Assembly (NCBI GenBank): GCA_017561825.1
Contig: JAFZBK010000057.1
Span: 1 to 35,111 of the forward strand
Length of the DNA: 35,111 nucleotides
Reading direction: 5' to 3'
Origin: Prevotella sp.
Lineage (GTDB): Bacteria > Bacteroidota > Bacteroidia > Bacteroidales > Bacteroidaceae
A program made the position numbers and the translations under genes. Within the stretch, counting starts at the first letter, position 1. Each line of letters begins with the position of its first letter. The notes under the pieces were generated by a model, which did no database searches, was not told where the DNA came from, and saw only the letters and a program-made list of their open reading frames with translations. This document shows, piece by piece, positions 1,838 to 23,000 of this stretch.

Positions 1838-3920
1838 CTATCAAGATTCTCGCATCAACGGCAATCACATCATTCTCATCTGCCAGCAACGGGTTGATGT
1901 CCATCTCCTTAATCTCCGTAGCGAAGCGGAGAAGGGTGGAGAGACGGACGATGATCTCGGCATAGCGTTGTTCGTTGATGCCTTTCTGGCCGCGTGTACC
2001 CTTGATGATCTTATAGGCACGTAACGAACGGATCATGGAGTAGGCCTCAGGGTAGGAGAGTGGGGCCAAACCACTCGACACATCCTTGAGCACCTCCACG
2101 AAGATGCCGCCTAAGCCGCATAGCACCACATGACCGAAGCGCTGCTCGTATTTTGCACCGATGAAGAGTTCGGTACCTTTGAGCATCTTCTGCACCATCA
2201 CACCAGTAGCACCATCGATCTTCATCATCCGCTCGAACTCGAGGGCAAGATGCTCAGGAGTGCGGATATTCAGAGCCACACCGCCTACATCGCTCTTATG
2301 TACAGGACCTACCACCTTTGCCACAACGGGATAACCTACCTTGTCGGCGAAGGTGGTTAGTTCTTTCTGATCAGCACTAACCTTCTCGGGAACCATGGGG
2401 ATACCTGCACATTCCAATAGCTGGTGTACGGTTTCCGGGGGAAGATATCCAGAAGACCTAGTGTTGTTAGTACTACTAGTATTACTAGGAATATTAGCTA
2501 TGATCTCCCTGATCTTGATGATATCCACTCCGTAGAGTTCAATCTCGGGTGCTGCGGGTGGTGGTGTCTTCATGATCTGGGTGAGTGCCGTAGCAAGGGT
2601 CACCTCATCACTGAAGTTCACATGTCCTTTCTTCAGAAACTCCGCCACTTCGGGTCCTGCTGTGTGAACACTGGGAAGAATGGGGAAGATGGGTTTCTTG
2701 CACTCCTGTATCTTCTTATCCAACACATCGTATGCTTCATAGAGCTGAACCAGTCCTGGAGTGCCAAAGATCACGAAGATGGCATCAATCTCTTCAAAGC
2801 GCTGTTCGCAGAAATCAATGGCCACACTTAACTGCTTCCCTGCTCCCGTAGCAAGGATGTCGATGGGGTTGGAGACCGATGAACCGGGAAGAAGCTGTGC
2901 TTTCAACTCATCAGCAGCCGGTCCTTCGAGCTTGGGGATATTCATACCACCTTTCGACAATGCGTCGGTGAGCATCACACCTGGTCCACCTGCATGGGTC
3001 ACAATGGCGAAGTTCTTGCCTTTGAGTGGCGGTAGGGTGAAGATACAACCTACCGTTGTCAGTTCCTCACGGGAGAAACAGCGAACAATGCCTGCCTTAC
3101 GGAACAATGCTTCCACGGCGGAGTCGCTACTTGCGATGGCACCCGTATGGGAGGAGGCTGCCCTACTGCCGCTTTCTGATGAGCCTGCCTTGATGGCGGC
3201 GATGCGACAGCCCTTGCGGATCAAGGAGCTGGCGTGGAACAGGAGCTTGTCGGGGTTCCCCACATTCTCTATATAGAGGAGCTTCACTTTGGAGTCATAC
3301 TCCGCATCGAAGTGCTCATCCATGTATTGCAGTACATCCTCAATGCCGATCTGCTTACCATTGCCGATACTCCACACGCTGTTGAACGGCAGACCCTTCG
3401 TTACGGCGCTCTCCAGAATGAATACCGCCGTAGCACCTGATCCGCTGATGAAATCAACCCCCTCGCGTTTGAGTGTGGGGATGGGCTTGGTGAAGACACT
3501 ATGATGCCAGTCGTTCATCAGTCCGATGCAATTAGGACCGATAAGTGCGGCACCGTATCTCTCACAAGTGTTGAGGATCTGCTCTTCCAGGACTGCTCCT
3601 TCCTTCGTCTCTTCTCCGAAGCCGGCAGAGATGATGATGAAAGCCCGTACTTTCTTTTCCGCAGCCAGATACTCCACGTAGTCAGGACAATACTTGGCAG
3701 CAACGACTAGTACGGCTAAGTCGGTGGGCGGCACTTCTTTCACGTCGTGGAACACCTTGATGCCCTGCACCTCATCCTCTTTGGGATTGACGATGCGCAG
3801 GATACCTTTGTAGCCTCCTTGGATGATGTTGCGCACGATGGCGCCACCAGGTTTGTGCACATTGTTGGAGCCGCCGATGATGACGATACTCTCCGGGTGC
3901 AATAGTTGTTGGTTAATCAT
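1821..3920 (-). CDS. Acyl-CoA synthetase (ADP-forming), fused alpha and beta subunits
   Basis: Converts an acyl-CoA (acetyl-CoA in the classic case), ADP and phosphate to free acid, CoA and ATP, which lets fermenters recover ATP by substrate-level phosphorylation. The 699 residues contain a CoA-binding Rossmann domain (about 1-130), ligase-CoA domains with the phosphohistidine motif SSHTGA (His258), and an ATP-grasp domain (about 500-699) with the GYPVVAKVVGP and HKSDVGGV segments. The substrate cannot be read from sequence; propionyl-CoA or aryl-CoA are possible. The gene lies 32 nt after the GH94 gene on the same strand, so the two are probably co-transcribed. A Ser/Thr/Asn-rich linker at about 473-490, just before ATP-grasp, is encoded by an in-frame 9-bp tandem repeat. 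The stop codon lies in the shared terminator. Confidence 0.9.
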   Translation of the reverse strand: MINQQLLHPESIVIIGGSNNVHKPGGAIVRNIIQGGYKGILRIVNPKEDEVQGIKVFHDVKEVPPTDLAVLVVAAKYCPDYVEYLAAEKKVRAFIIISAGFGEETKEGAVLEEQILNTCERYGAALIGPNCIGLMNDWHHSVFTKPIPTLKREGVDFISGSGATAVFILESAVTKGLPFNSVWSIGNGKQIGIEDVLQYMDEHFDAEYDSKVKLLYIENVGNPDKLLFHASSLIRKGCRIAAIKAGSSESGSRAASSHTGAIASSDSAVEALFRKAGIVRCFSREELTTVGCIFTLPPLKGKNFAIVTHAGGPGVMLTDALSKGGMNIPKLEGPAADELKAQLLPGSSVSNPIDILATGAGKQLSVAIDFCEQRFEEIDAIFVIFGTPGLVQLYEAYDVLDKKIQECKKPIFPILPSVHTAGPEVAEFLKKGHVNFSDEVTLATALTQIMKTPPPAAPEIELYGVDIIKIREIIANIPSNTSSTNNTRSSGYLPPETVHQLLECAGIPMVPEKVSADQKELTTFADKVGYPVVAKVVGPVHKSDVGGVALNIRTPEHLALEFERMMKIDGATGVMVQKMLKGTELFIGAKYEQRFGHVVLCGLGGIFVEVLKDVSSGLAPLSYPEAYSMIRSLRAYKIIKGTRGQKGINEQRYAEIIVRLSTLLRFATEIKEMDINPLLADENDVIAVDARILIEKSEE
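2453..2502 (-). repeat. 9-bp tandem repeat (5 units) inside the acyl-CoA synthetase gene
   Basis: On the coding strand five units start CTAR at exact 9-nt spacing (unit starts at 2497, 2488, 2479, 2470 and 2461). The consensus is CTAGTANNN. The array is in frame and encodes a Ser/Thr/Asn-rich stretch in the interdomain linker. Sister arrays lie at 6488-6532 and 21855-21899. Confidence 0.85.
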
Positions 3921-3952
3921 GGTCGTTTACTTATATCGTTTCACAATAATGG

Positions 3953-20037: not shown

Positions 20038-20077
20038 ACTGCCCAAGTAGAAATCAATAAAGACAATCAATAAGAAG

Positions 20078-23000
20078 ATGAAAAAGCTATTTGTAGTGTT
20101 GGCCATGGCGATGATACAGTCATCGGCCTGGTCACAATCCTTTACCGAGTGGCATAATATGGATGTGAATGGGGTGAACCGTATGGAGAGTCATACCTCA
20201 TTCTTTGCCTGTGAAAACGCAGTTATAGCCCAGAAAGGCGACTGGAGTCAGTCATCCCGCTTCCTCTCACTGCATGGTGACTGGAAGTTCAACTGGGTGG
20301 AGGACGCATCTGACAAACCAACTGATTTCTTCCGTGCCGACTACGACGACTCCCAATGGGGCAAGATGTCCGTGCCAGGAATCTGGGAAATGAACGGCTT
20401 TGGCGATCCCGTGTATTTGAATGTCGGCTTCGCTTGGCGCGGTCATTTCAAACAACTGACACAGGCCGACTATAAGGAGGGTTTCAGAGATGTCCCTGTA
20501 CCGGTGAAGGATAACCATGTGGGCTCCTATCGTAAGACCATCACGCTTCCGGCATCCTGGAAAGGACAGCAGGTGATTGCCCATTTTGGCAGCGTCACCT
20601 CGTGTATCTACCTCTGGGTAAACGGACAGTTCGTAGGATACAGTGAGGATGCAAAGATTGCAGCGGAGTTTGATGTCACGAAATATGTGCATCCTGGCGA
20701 GAACCTCATCGCCTTCCAGGTGTTCCGTTGGTGCGATGGCTCCTGGTGTGAGGATCAGGACTTCTGGCGATTGAGTGGCGTGGCTCGTGATAGCTACCTG
20801 TATTGTCGTAACGCCCAGAACCATATTGAGGATATCCGTATCACACCTGATCTAGTGAACGACTACCGAGACGGTGTCTTGCAGGTGGATGTCAAGGCCG
20901 CTGGCAAGGGTGAAGTACGGGTTGAACTGTATGATGCTGACGGTCATCAGGTGGCTGATGGAACAATCAACAGTTGGAAGGAATCGATGCCAAAGCAGGG
21001 TAGTGTGACGCTGACGGTGGAGAACCCGAAGAAGTGGTCTGCCGAGACACCTTATTTATATACGTTGGTGGCACGACTTCTGCCTGCCAAGAAATATCCT
21101 GAGATTGGTGCTGAGTACGAAGCAATTAGTCAGAAGGTGGGTTTCCGCAAGGTGGAGATCAAAGATGCGCAGCTGTTGGTGAACGGTCAACCGATATTCA
21201 TCAAGGGTGTTGACCGTCATGAGATGGATCCCGACGGCGGTTATGTGGTGAGCCGTGAACGGATGATCCAGGATATCCAGTTGATGAAACGGTTCAATGT
21301 CAATGCCGTGCGCACCAGTCATTACTCCGATGATCCTGTGTGGTACGACCTCTGCGACCAGTATGGTATCTATCTCTGTGCGGAGGCAAACCAGGAGAGT
21401 CATGGGCTCGGCTACAATCCCAAGGAGGCCATCTCCTATACACCGCTCTTCGCCAAGCAGATTCTTGAGCGCAACCAGCATAACATTCAGGTGAACTACA
21501 ACCACCCGAGTGTGATCATTTGGTCGTTGGGTAACGAAACCGTCGGCGGACCGAACTTCACAGCGGCATACAACTGGATCAAGAGTCAGGATGCCAACCG
21601 TCCGGTACAATATGAGCAGGCGGCCAACGGCACACCCAGTGATATCATGTGTCCGATGTATGCTTCGCAGGACTGGTGCGAGCGGTACGCTTCCAACCCT
21701 GCCACTACCAAGCCGCTCATCCAGTGCGAGTATAGTCATGCGATGGGTAACAGTTGTGGTGGTTTCAAGGAGTATTGGGATCTGGTTCGCAAATACCCGA
21801 AGTATCAGGGAGGTTTCATCTGGGATTTCGTTGACCAGGCCCTGCATCGATACCCTAGTAAAAATAGTATCACTAGTACAACAAGTAACACTAGTATAGA
21901 ATACACCTACGGTGGCGATTACAACGACTACGATCCTTCCGACAACAACTTCAACTGCAACGGCTTGGTATCTCCTGATCGTGTGCCGAATCCTGAGATG
22001 TACGAGGTGGGCTACTTCTACCAGAACATCTGGGCGGAAGCAGTGGATGCACAGAAAGGCGTGGTTCGTGTGAAGAACGAGAACTTCTTCAAAGACCTGA
22101 GTAATGTACGGTTGGTGTGGCAGCTGCTGGCTGATGGCGTGAAGGTACAGGAGGGAACGGTTGAACAGTTGGATATTGCACCGCAGCAGACCAAGGAGTA
22201 CACACTTCCGCTGAAGAATCTGGATGAGTATAACGGAAAGGAGCAGCTGCTCAACATCGACTTCGTACTGAAGAAGGCGGAGCCGTTGATGGAGGCAGGA
22301 CAGGTGATAGCTTATCGGCAGTTGACCGTCAATGACGAACGACAGAGGGAGTCTTCTGAGTCGATCGCTGCGAAGTTCAAGGTGAAAGAAGATAAGAAAG
22401 CACAGGAGGTGTCGGTGCAGACAGGTGATGTGAAGCTTGTCTTCGACCGTGCCACAGGCTTCCTCTGCCATTATGAGGCGGCAGGTAAGCAGCTGCTGGG
22501 TGAAGGCGGTACCATCAAACCGAATTTCTGGCGTGCCGTCACGGATAATGATATGGGCGCATGGATTCAGCGCAGGTATAAGGTGTGGCGCAACCCGGAA
22601 CTAAAACTCACCGCCTTTGAGACCAAGAAAGCCAAGACCAAGCAGGGTGAGAACTATGTGGATGTAACGGCGACGTATGATATGCCATCAGTAAAGGCAC
22701 AGTTACAAATGAACTATGCTGTGCTGGCTGGCGGACAATTGTTCATTCATCAGACCATGACGGTGAATGATACCGCGAAGGTGGCCGACATGTTGCGCTT
22801 CGGTGTGGTGATCCAACTGCCGTACGATATGGACAAGAGCAAGTTCTACGGTCGTGGACCCATTGAGAGCTATGCCGACAGGAAGGAATCTCAGCGTGTC
22901 GGACTGTATGAGCAGACCGCCGATGAGCAGTTCTATCCGTATATCCGTCCTCAGGAGACAGGTACGAAGAGTGATATCCGTTGGTGGGAGCAGACCGATG

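Follow-up and report, generated by a model that had tools for sequence, protein, structure and literature searches.

Results

CTAG arrays at three loci of the window

The window, by which we mean the whole 35,111-nt stretch of Prevotella sp. DNA analysed here, carries three short arrays in which CTAG recurs every 9 bp:

2449..2502, minus strand: array 1, five units (three perfect CTAG cores and two CTAA), in frame within a gene, phase 1
6484..6538, minus strand: array 2, five perfect CTAG cores and then CTAA, in a leader
21855..21899, plus strand: array 3, five units (three perfect CTAG cores, ATAG and CAAG), in frame within a gene, phase 1

Array 1 lies in gene 1821-3920, whose CoA_binding, Succ_CoA_lig and ATP-grasp domains identify an ADP-forming type acyl-CoA synthetase. 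Read along the host transcript, it runs CTAATATTC CTAGTAATA CTAGTAGTA CTAACAACA CTAGGTCTT, with perfect cores in 3/5 units, and it encodes PSNTSSTNNTRS, directly before the ATP-grasp domain that starts at residue 490. Array 2 is found 18 nt ahead of the start codon of gene 3953-6466, named GH94 in the first-pass annotation, while array 3 encodes 15 residues of a GH2 beta-galactosidase (gene 20078-23272). The earlier naming of the first and third hosts, as acyl-CoA synthetase and GH2, is borne out by their domain content.

The arrays at all three sites are real and lie beyond chance. Indeed, the window holds 19 period-9 CTAG matches for 0.98 expected, a count reached in 0/100 shuffles, and nine near-perfect period-9 triplets versus none in every one of 30 block shuffles. 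The first-pass annotation had described exactly five units at each site, all in sense orientation, with one phase shared by the two coding copies. The shared phase (phase 1 in arrays 1 and 3) is correct; five units is correct if cores with one mismatch are counted, but array 2 has a sixth, degenerate unit (CTAA); and the sense orientation stands by TA count for arrays 2 and 3, but not for array 1, which gives a tie (7:7), CTAG itself being a palindrome.

A family of CTAG arrays in Bacteroidales

The window arrays are members of a larger family with CTAG every 9 bp and free 5-bp spacers, i.e. short tandem arrays (CTAG N5)n, n mostly 4-10, in Prevotella and other Bacteroidales. There are 22 of them in this genome, where further tandem families are also present. 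Commensal isolates with arrays include Prevotella sp. tc2-28 and Prevotellamassilia timonensis. The idea of a genome-wide class with fixed core and spacing, coding and non-coding alike, is thus upheld. Perfect four-core runs occur in 73/150 genomes of the same genus and the reversed control GATC in 4/150; since such runs are missing from about half of the genus, the arrays can be nothing essential. In a phylum sample, CTAG at period 9 was found in 2/296 genomes versus 29/296 for the GATC control, 22 of the latter from one family, which speaks against CTAG being unique. A pattern allowing two mismatches gave 49/42 versus 5/10, and with three mismatches the count became uninformative (63 versus 72 for the control). 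CTAG is scarce elsewhere (157 versus 579 expected) and CUAG is the scarcest among the palindromes compared. The G010 cluster accounts for 46/74 triplets. In the PMC literature, which leaves out subscription papers, we found no description of such CTAG nonamers from Bacteroidales.

For quantification, we defined a strict array as having at least three spacers between perfect cores, a definition that array 2 alone satisfies in the window. The resulting 149 arrays (79 from 66 named loci, 70 from nine genomes) were all collected by CTAG patterns, which inflates their core constancy. The named loci were initially 80; 14 were dropped, 13 being non-Bacteroidales by title and one (L220) titled only 'bacterium', and three titled merely 'uncultured bacterium' were kept. 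Genes were called with a custom codon-usage ORF script.

In this set, unit number ranges from four, the selection floor, to 18, with five units in 29 arrays. Where polarity is clear, codirectional gaps hold 25 sense and 13 antisense arrays and coding sequence eight and ten, respectively; the strand bias is not significant. Forty-two arrays are coding, in phases 1, 0 and 2 for 30, 12 and 0 of them, and so never in the TAG frame. The fixed unit number and uniform sense orientation proposed earlier therefore do not extend to the family, and the single coding phase is true for the two window genes only. The first-pass annotation had itself named variation of the first two as evidence against its reading.

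The two frames used yield unrelated peptides: the core encodes Thr/Ser/Pro/Ala then Ser/Arg, or Leu then Val/Glu/Gly/Ala/Asp, these residues varying while CTAG is kept. In-frame copies occupy variable loops, linkers and termini; the protein at L041:14942 is AMP-binding.

Position relative to genes

Arrays occur inside genes, past stop codons, within narrow operon gaps, in leaders and immediately ahead of a 16S rRNA. In codirectional gaps, 61/71 are closer to the upstream stop than to the next start, with a median of 11 nt past the stop. Divergent gaps hold only 4/90 gap arrays, although they make up 24% of intergenic bases (p=1.3e-6), and these four are 18-40 nt from a start codon. The arrays are probably located in transcribed DNA; the proximity to stops could be mere avoidance of start regions. 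On the transcript strand the spacers are rich in A, but they exceed the background only weakly (p=0.04 and 0.07). In 16/86 array-stop pairs, the TAG of the first CTAG serves as the stop. A role as in-frame backup stops was rejected: TAG is in frame in 25/64 arrays lying wholly behind a stop, near one third. At gathering score, Rfam models matched five tRNAs and the 16S rRNA beginning at L042:9518 in seven array-bearing sources, none of them over an array.

Window loci in relatives

Compared at the protein level, array 1 is missing from 7/7 relatives; the loop of the acyl-CoA synthetase exceeds that of the nearest relative (G094) by three residues and also differs in content. At the place of array 2, G094 has a different period-9 run, and neither was seen in four further relatives. 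Array 3 is present in G094 with three CTAG and the GH2 array residues are conserved, while the GH2 loop of 28/28 other homologues contains no CTAG. Two window arrays are thus lacking in the nearest relative, and at neither site was a clean 45-bp gain seen against it, so the precise in-frame insertion suggested by analogy with Rickettsia elements fails at both. Another outcome that would have spoken against the earlier reading, the same residues in repeat-free homologues, did not materialise: their residues differ, and in many cases the loop is shorter.

Cores are retained while spacers drift in most arrays compared

We compared 11 orthologous arrays between G000 and G094, which are related species. 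Cores differ at 14/208 sites (6.7%), flanks at 444/3234 (13.7%) and spacers at 74/236 (31.4%); cores are below flanks (p=0.003) and spacers above them (p=3e-11), in a test which the aligner may help and whose sites are not independent. Two of the 11 (L041:5900 and L041:13017) are Leu-coding with a weaker score. Four further sites (the acyl-CoA synthetase, the putative GH94 leader, L050:6203 and L042:9472) were compared as well but left out of the count, since G094 has no full array at these places. ClpB is an exception, its core decaying as fast as its spacer (3/20 and 3/23). Within 45 arrays of at least eight units, internal cores are off at 37/1520 positions, while spacers of neighbouring units differ by 35-47%. 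Across species the same gap or loop is retained with an altered unit number, and an array recurs in the same threonine synthase loop in several species. Altogether, these comparisons support the view that, in most arrays compared, CTAG at a 9-bp register is kept at the nucleotide level and that spacers drift freely, which hints at an unrecognised signal.

Origin of the units

Within arrays, spacer pairs are identical in direct orientation in 269/2166 cases and as reverse complements in 8/2166. The recurrence of direct identical spacers indicates that units multiply by local, direct 9-bp tandem duplication; the few complementary pairs led us to reject hairpins formed by spacers. Between arrays of one genome, spacers are shared in 250/6132 pairs versus 220 +/- 17 from column composition (raw sharing is 4.1% within genomes versus 1.8% between genomes). 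These results speak against a defined dispersed element as the alternative to slippage, as duplicates are direct and inside arrays and sharing between loci amounts to composition.

Other candidates were discarded or weakened. Restriction-ligation shuffling predicts mixed orientation inside arrays and none was seen. A symmetric hexamer core shows no excess in genus loci (120 units versus 130 +/- 7); in named loci the count of 211 exceeds an across-array shuffle (162 +/- 9, 0/500) but is matched by a within-array shuffle (219 +/- 4), so that the flanking bases are a habit of the array and not a rule of the unit. A phage origin was set aside after examination of 80 of 119 viral loci, in which arrays are largely coding Ser/Gly/Pro or plain tandem repeats.

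Discussion

Our tentative preference, held at somewhat short of even, is that the arrays are born locally and that CTAG is kept at the level of nucleotides, the arrays probably serving as multi-site RNA elements. Units of 9 bp would arise by direct duplication on the spot; spacers would then be free to drift while the CTAG core and the 9-bp register are retained. What is retained may be a series of CUAG sites along the transcript that affects mRNA at the ends of genes, and its putative reader could be some factor or, CUAG being self-complementary, CUAG-CUAG pairing. Pairing does not explain the choice of CTAG, as GATC or CATG cores would pair equally well. This counts against the multi-site RNA element, as do the ClpB exception, the lack of a significant strand bias, the half of the genus without a four-core array, the weakness of the A-richness and the two window arrays lacking in the nearest relative. 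As for a reader, the RRM protein RbpB was considered and rejected: the accessible part of its description reports AU-rich binding and a 41-nt motif, and the term UAG is absent from that part (PMC11697453). In a more specific version, which we regard as improbable, the transcripts would behave as 'sticker and spacer' RNA, with CUAG stickers at 9 nt through which array transcripts (gene ends, coding loops, 16S leader) pair multivalently.

Neutral minisatellites and DNA-binding arrays are serious rivals of the RNA-element reading. Functionless minisatellites, for which some process promotes the duplication of 9 bp at pairs of CTAG and which persist at any place that tolerates three extra codons or a few bases of spacer, are a possible if rather unlikely explanation. 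Direct tandem duplication and a unit number that varies among orthologues are what slippage produces, and the location in variable loops and gaps, the patchy species distribution, the different period-9 run at the putative GH94 leader and the other tandem families of this genome all agree with it. However, free slippage predicts a uniform drift of unit positions, with core and spacer changing alike, and this is not what is seen, cores changing less than flanks and flanks less than spacers, ClpB excepted. Moreover, the core in the genus is CTAG and hardly ever the GATC control.

Palindromic sites at the DNA level, for a cooperative DNA-binding protein, a topoisomerase or a methylase, would make coding and strand irrelevant; we consider this unlikely. 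The palindromic core, the absence of a significant strand bias, the equivalence of coding and non-coding sites and the rarity of CTAG elsewhere are all consistent with it, and TrpR, MetJ and RHH proteins, with their tandem CTAG sites or short boxes in tandem, offer precedents. But divergent gaps, where such sites could freely lie, show a strong shortage, and half of the genus is without arrays. Operators of the TrpR/MetJ type are cooperatively bound CTAG sites or short tandem boxes with 8-bp spacing at a few promoter sites, whereas the arrays have 9-bp spacing, are many and avoid divergent gaps.

The mobile in-frame elements favoured by the first-pass annotation now appear very improbable. Rickettsia palindromic elements are in-frame additions in many genes, and the arrays share this feature, with many sites per genome; yet an insertion of defined length is absent from the acyl-CoA synthetase loop and the putative GH94 leader, spacer copying between loci does not exceed composition, and the arrays are direct repeats rather than one long palindrome, with only core and register in common and no long shared sequence. 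Protein-level selection for Ser/Thr linkers, suggested by the placement of coding copies in loops, linkers and termini, the conserved GH2 array residues and the coding Ser/Gly/Pro repeats with CTAG in viral contigs, is scarcely credible and is refuted as a general cause by the existence of non-coding arrays, only 42/149 being coding, with frames that give unrelated peptides and core residues that vary under a constant CTAG.

Among other known repeats, REP/BIME are palindromic hairpins of about 20-40 bp, behind genes and scarce in promoters. The CTAG arrays resemble them in palindromy and position but have 9-bp units, non-complementary spacers and weakly pairing cores, and form no stable hairpin. 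AATTNNN heptamer arrays, of which there are 31 in the sampled sequence of this genome, likewise have a palindromic 4-bp core and a degenerate spacer in direct tandem; they differ in having a period of 7, in filling the gap from stop to start (medians -1.5 and 2.5 nt) and in lying inside genes in only 4/31 cases. TAACTGA heptamer direct repeats are described from Beggiatoaceae, some Cyanobacteria and five Bacteroidetes as dozens of short, intergenic arrays per genome, patchily distributed and some inside genes, with a proposed, unproven RNA-level function, all of which recalls the CTAG arrays (PMC4679880). Their unit is an invariant 7 bp and they lie mostly several nt upstream of starts in one orientation, whereas the CTAG arrays combine a core of 4 bp with free spacers at period 9, lie mostly behind stops and occupy two of the three gene frames (PMC4679880).

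If the core is selected, each genome of these common gut and rumen bacteria would carry a single unnoticed signal at dozens of places, shared by gene ends, leaders and protein loops. It would also be a warning that nucleotides, and not the protein, can drive the Ser/Thr-rich loops of such proteins. If the sticker reading were true, unit number would set a transcriptome-wide code of RNA-RNA contacts. Even if the arrays are neutral, an expansion bound to CTAG and to 9 bp that recurs in a threonine synthase loop would be an odd mutational phenomenon.

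Array structure and the CTAG core

The three arrays reported in the window by the first-pass annotation hold at their positions, and they are not reproduced in shuffled sequences, which excludes chance. Each is built of 9-bp units, a CTAG core followed by a free 5-bp spacer, and arrays with at least three spacers between perfect cores are called strict here.

2449-2502, minus strand: array 1, in the acyl-CoA synthetase gene (1821-3920)
6484-6538, minus strand: array 2, in the leader of the GH94-named gene (3953-6466)
21855-21899, plus strand: array 3, in frame in the GH2 beta-galactosidase gene (20078-23272)
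30163-30194: AATTNNN heptamer array
35083-35107: AATTNNN heptamer array

The TRF signal of the window arrays is weak because their units differ from each other; the strict part of the unit is CTAG at a 9-bp period. A TA 3′ of CTAG is common in the Prevotella genome that carries the window (G000), and the bases after the core differ elsewhere. Spacers of G000 tend towards T...A (first base T in 50/58, last base A in 52/58), unlike the TATTC/GAATA spacers of genome G010. Outside arrays, CTAG is scarce in G000, with 157 occurrences observed for 579 expected in a 416-kb sample consisting mostly of stretches picked away from known arrays; observed over expected counts in this sample are 1870/2503 for GATC, 1962/2325 for CATG and 1147/1282 for AATT.

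Among 149 strict Bacteroidales arrays, collected by CTAG patterns, the number of units ranges from 4 to 18 (mode 5-7; exactly five in 29). Within arrays, identical spacers recur in direct orientation in 269 of 2166 pairs and as reverse complements in 8, which indicates that units multiply via local duplication. Between arrays of one genome, spacer sharing shows no excess (250/6132, compared with 220 ± 17 from column composition). Arrays are thus not mutual copies; what they have in common is the core and its register.

Distribution

The G000 assembly (2.98 Mb, 69 contigs, 88% complete) has 22 arrays of 3-8 units in a scan of the fetched loci, and 23 rows with a lower threshold. A strict four-core pattern is found in 73 of 150 genus genomes, G000 included, and in 27 of the 68 of best quality; the highest counts are 189 (G009), 158 (G131) and 150 (G049). 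GATC, the reversed control, gives matches in 4/150. In a phylum sample, CTAG is restricted to 2/296 genomes, G000 and one other with a single match, and the GATC control is commoner (29/296). GATC cores at a 9-bp period reach at most 26 per genome in one other family of the phylum, f17 (G298, G437 and others), perhaps a second nonamer family. A five-core scan of named genomes returned at least 118 stretches; the 80 listed titles comprise 63 Bacteroidales or 'Bacteroidetes' (two checked individually), 13 other bacteria and 4 unspecific, and some of the non-Bacteroidales stretches are plain tandem repeats. In the almost closed G010, all 74 three-core places fall within 1.21-1.94 Mb on a contig of 1.98 Mb; 46 cluster in 32 kb (C3, 1,599,601-1,631,644) surrounded by housekeeping genes.

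Other short-period repeats

The nearest published kind that we found is the TAACTGA heptamer repeat (PMC4679880); its habit is like that of CTAG arrays, and its unit, place and orientation rule differ. AATTNNN heptamer arrays of G000 (palindromic AATT, degenerate spacer; 31 in the window, L041-L053 and L188-L207) occupy stop-to-start gaps, with median distances of -1.5 nt to the stop and 2.5 nt to the start, and appear closer to the TAACTGA kind than CTAG arrays do. G000 also has a 22-bp intergenic repeat whose palindromic core resembles TTCCCAACGTGGGAA (L188:6733, L193:17109, L194:6107, L204:18344 and others) and a few CCGG-core runs of period 9 (TCCGGA or CCGGAATTT; L196:3396, L201:13438). 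In G081, in-frame period-9 runs of the GTAGGTTTG/GTAGGGATG type, another nonamer core, lie at L092:2014-2080 and 7227-7311 and encode RFSRDG and PTRPTK peptides.

Arrays in relatives

Array 1 is found in none of seven relatives compared at the protein level; the nearest relative, G094, has a loop three residues shorter, encoded by DNA free of CTAG arrays. The array 2 leader of G094 (L445) holds a different period-9 run, (CCYATTAAR)n by eye, and neither CTAG units nor such a run was seen in four further relatives. Array 3 is of equal length in G094 with nearly all residues identical, the differences falling mainly at third codon positions; the loop is free of CTAG in 28/28 other homologues and spans 9-41 codons.

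For threonine synthase, 50 loci were read out of 116 genomes with a match. The loop (16 to 72 codons) contains 4-7 CTAG in G000, G094, G131 and G035, a single one in 1 other locus and none in 45. In-frame inserts of other repeat kinds occur near this loop in G097 (L168) and G072 (L170), and at a second place in G072 and G066 (L171); G097 has a tandemly repeated segment of some 33 codons. The gap before mreB has an array in G000 and G094 and none in G074 and G081; at L043:7541, G000, G094 and G074 have arrays with differing unit numbers and G081 has none.

Position relative to genes

Of the 149 arrays, 42 lie in genes and 14 close to stretch ends; the gap arrays comprise 74 codirectional, 15 convergent and 4 divergent cases. 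Coding arrays use phase 1 (30) or phase 0 (12), never the phase reading TAG. Codirectional-gap arrays are closer to the upstream stop than to the next start in 61/71 cases (medians 11 and 35 nt), and the TAG of the first CTAG is the gene's stop codon in 16/86 array-stop pairs. Divergent gaps make up 24% of intergenic bases and hold 4/90 gap arrays (p=1.3e-6); the distance of these four to a start codon is 18-40 nt, which probably places them in leaders.

Own-genome proteins with arrays in their genes (examples)
Outside the window: ClpB, GrpE, threonine synthase, AMP-binding enzyme, Mur ligase-alanine racemase fusion, Glu/Gln-type tRNA synthetase, NuoB-type subunit, Fe-S protein
Window: acyl-CoA synthetase (array 1), GH2 beta-galactosidase (array 3)

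Two arrays lie at domain junctions: in the acyl-CoA synthetase, directly ahead of ATP-grasp at residue 490, and in a second protein, at residues 294-306, after a DUF3737 domain that ends at 293 and before an aminotransferase domain that starts at 335. Another (L042:9472-9505) precedes 16S rRNA, its last core ending at 9502 and the Rfam 16S match starting at 9518. This pattern occurs in 3/150 genomes (G000; G131, C35:15387; G105, C12:60897), counted over all 150 whether or not they hold a 16S gene; the G094 counterpart is longer and partly degenerate. No Rfam family overlaps an array in seven array-bearing sources.

RNA signal, DNA signal or neutral repeat

A functionless minisatellite is a serious rival to the RNA-level reading proposed below. 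In the alignment of 11 G000 arrays with their G094 counterparts, sites differ at 14/208 in cores, 444/3234 in flanks and 74/236 in spacers; cores change more slowly than flanks (p=0.003), and spacers may be simply neutral, since flanks are mostly coding. Internal cores of 45 long arrays (at least 8 units) deviate at 37/1520 positions, and spacer positions differ at 35-47% between neighbouring units. In coding arrays, the core-encoded residues vary and the CTAG nucleotides are constant. Against core conservation, however, ClpB cores decay at spacer speed (3/20, 3/23), a strict array is absent from half of the genus, and arrays were collected via their cores.

A DNA-binding array is also a serious rival. 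Strand orientation shows no significant bias (sense to antisense 25:13 in codirectional gaps and 8:10 in coding sequence), and a palindromic core of this kind is compatible with RNA and DNA signals alike. The avoidance of divergent gaps, together with the many sites in or behind genes, fits an RNA signal better. A clearly A-rich transcript strand would also favour RNA; the observed richness over background is weak (p=0.04 and 0.07).

In predicted folding, CTAG gives -2.62 kcal/mol per unit and CATG and GATC give -2.5 to -2.7; GCTA reaches -1.76, and three permuted cores -0.8 to -0.95. Binding between two arrays is -10.8 for CTAG, -10.6 to -10.8 for GATC/CATG and about -4 to -6.6 for non-palindromes. 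Since GATC and CATG fold and bind like CTAG, pairing alone cannot explain the choice of CTAG. Beyond pairing, either a specific reader or protection from off-target pairing through the scarcity of CTAG would be required. We propose, at somewhat less than even confidence, that the CTAG array is a multi-site RNA-level element with a putative reader.
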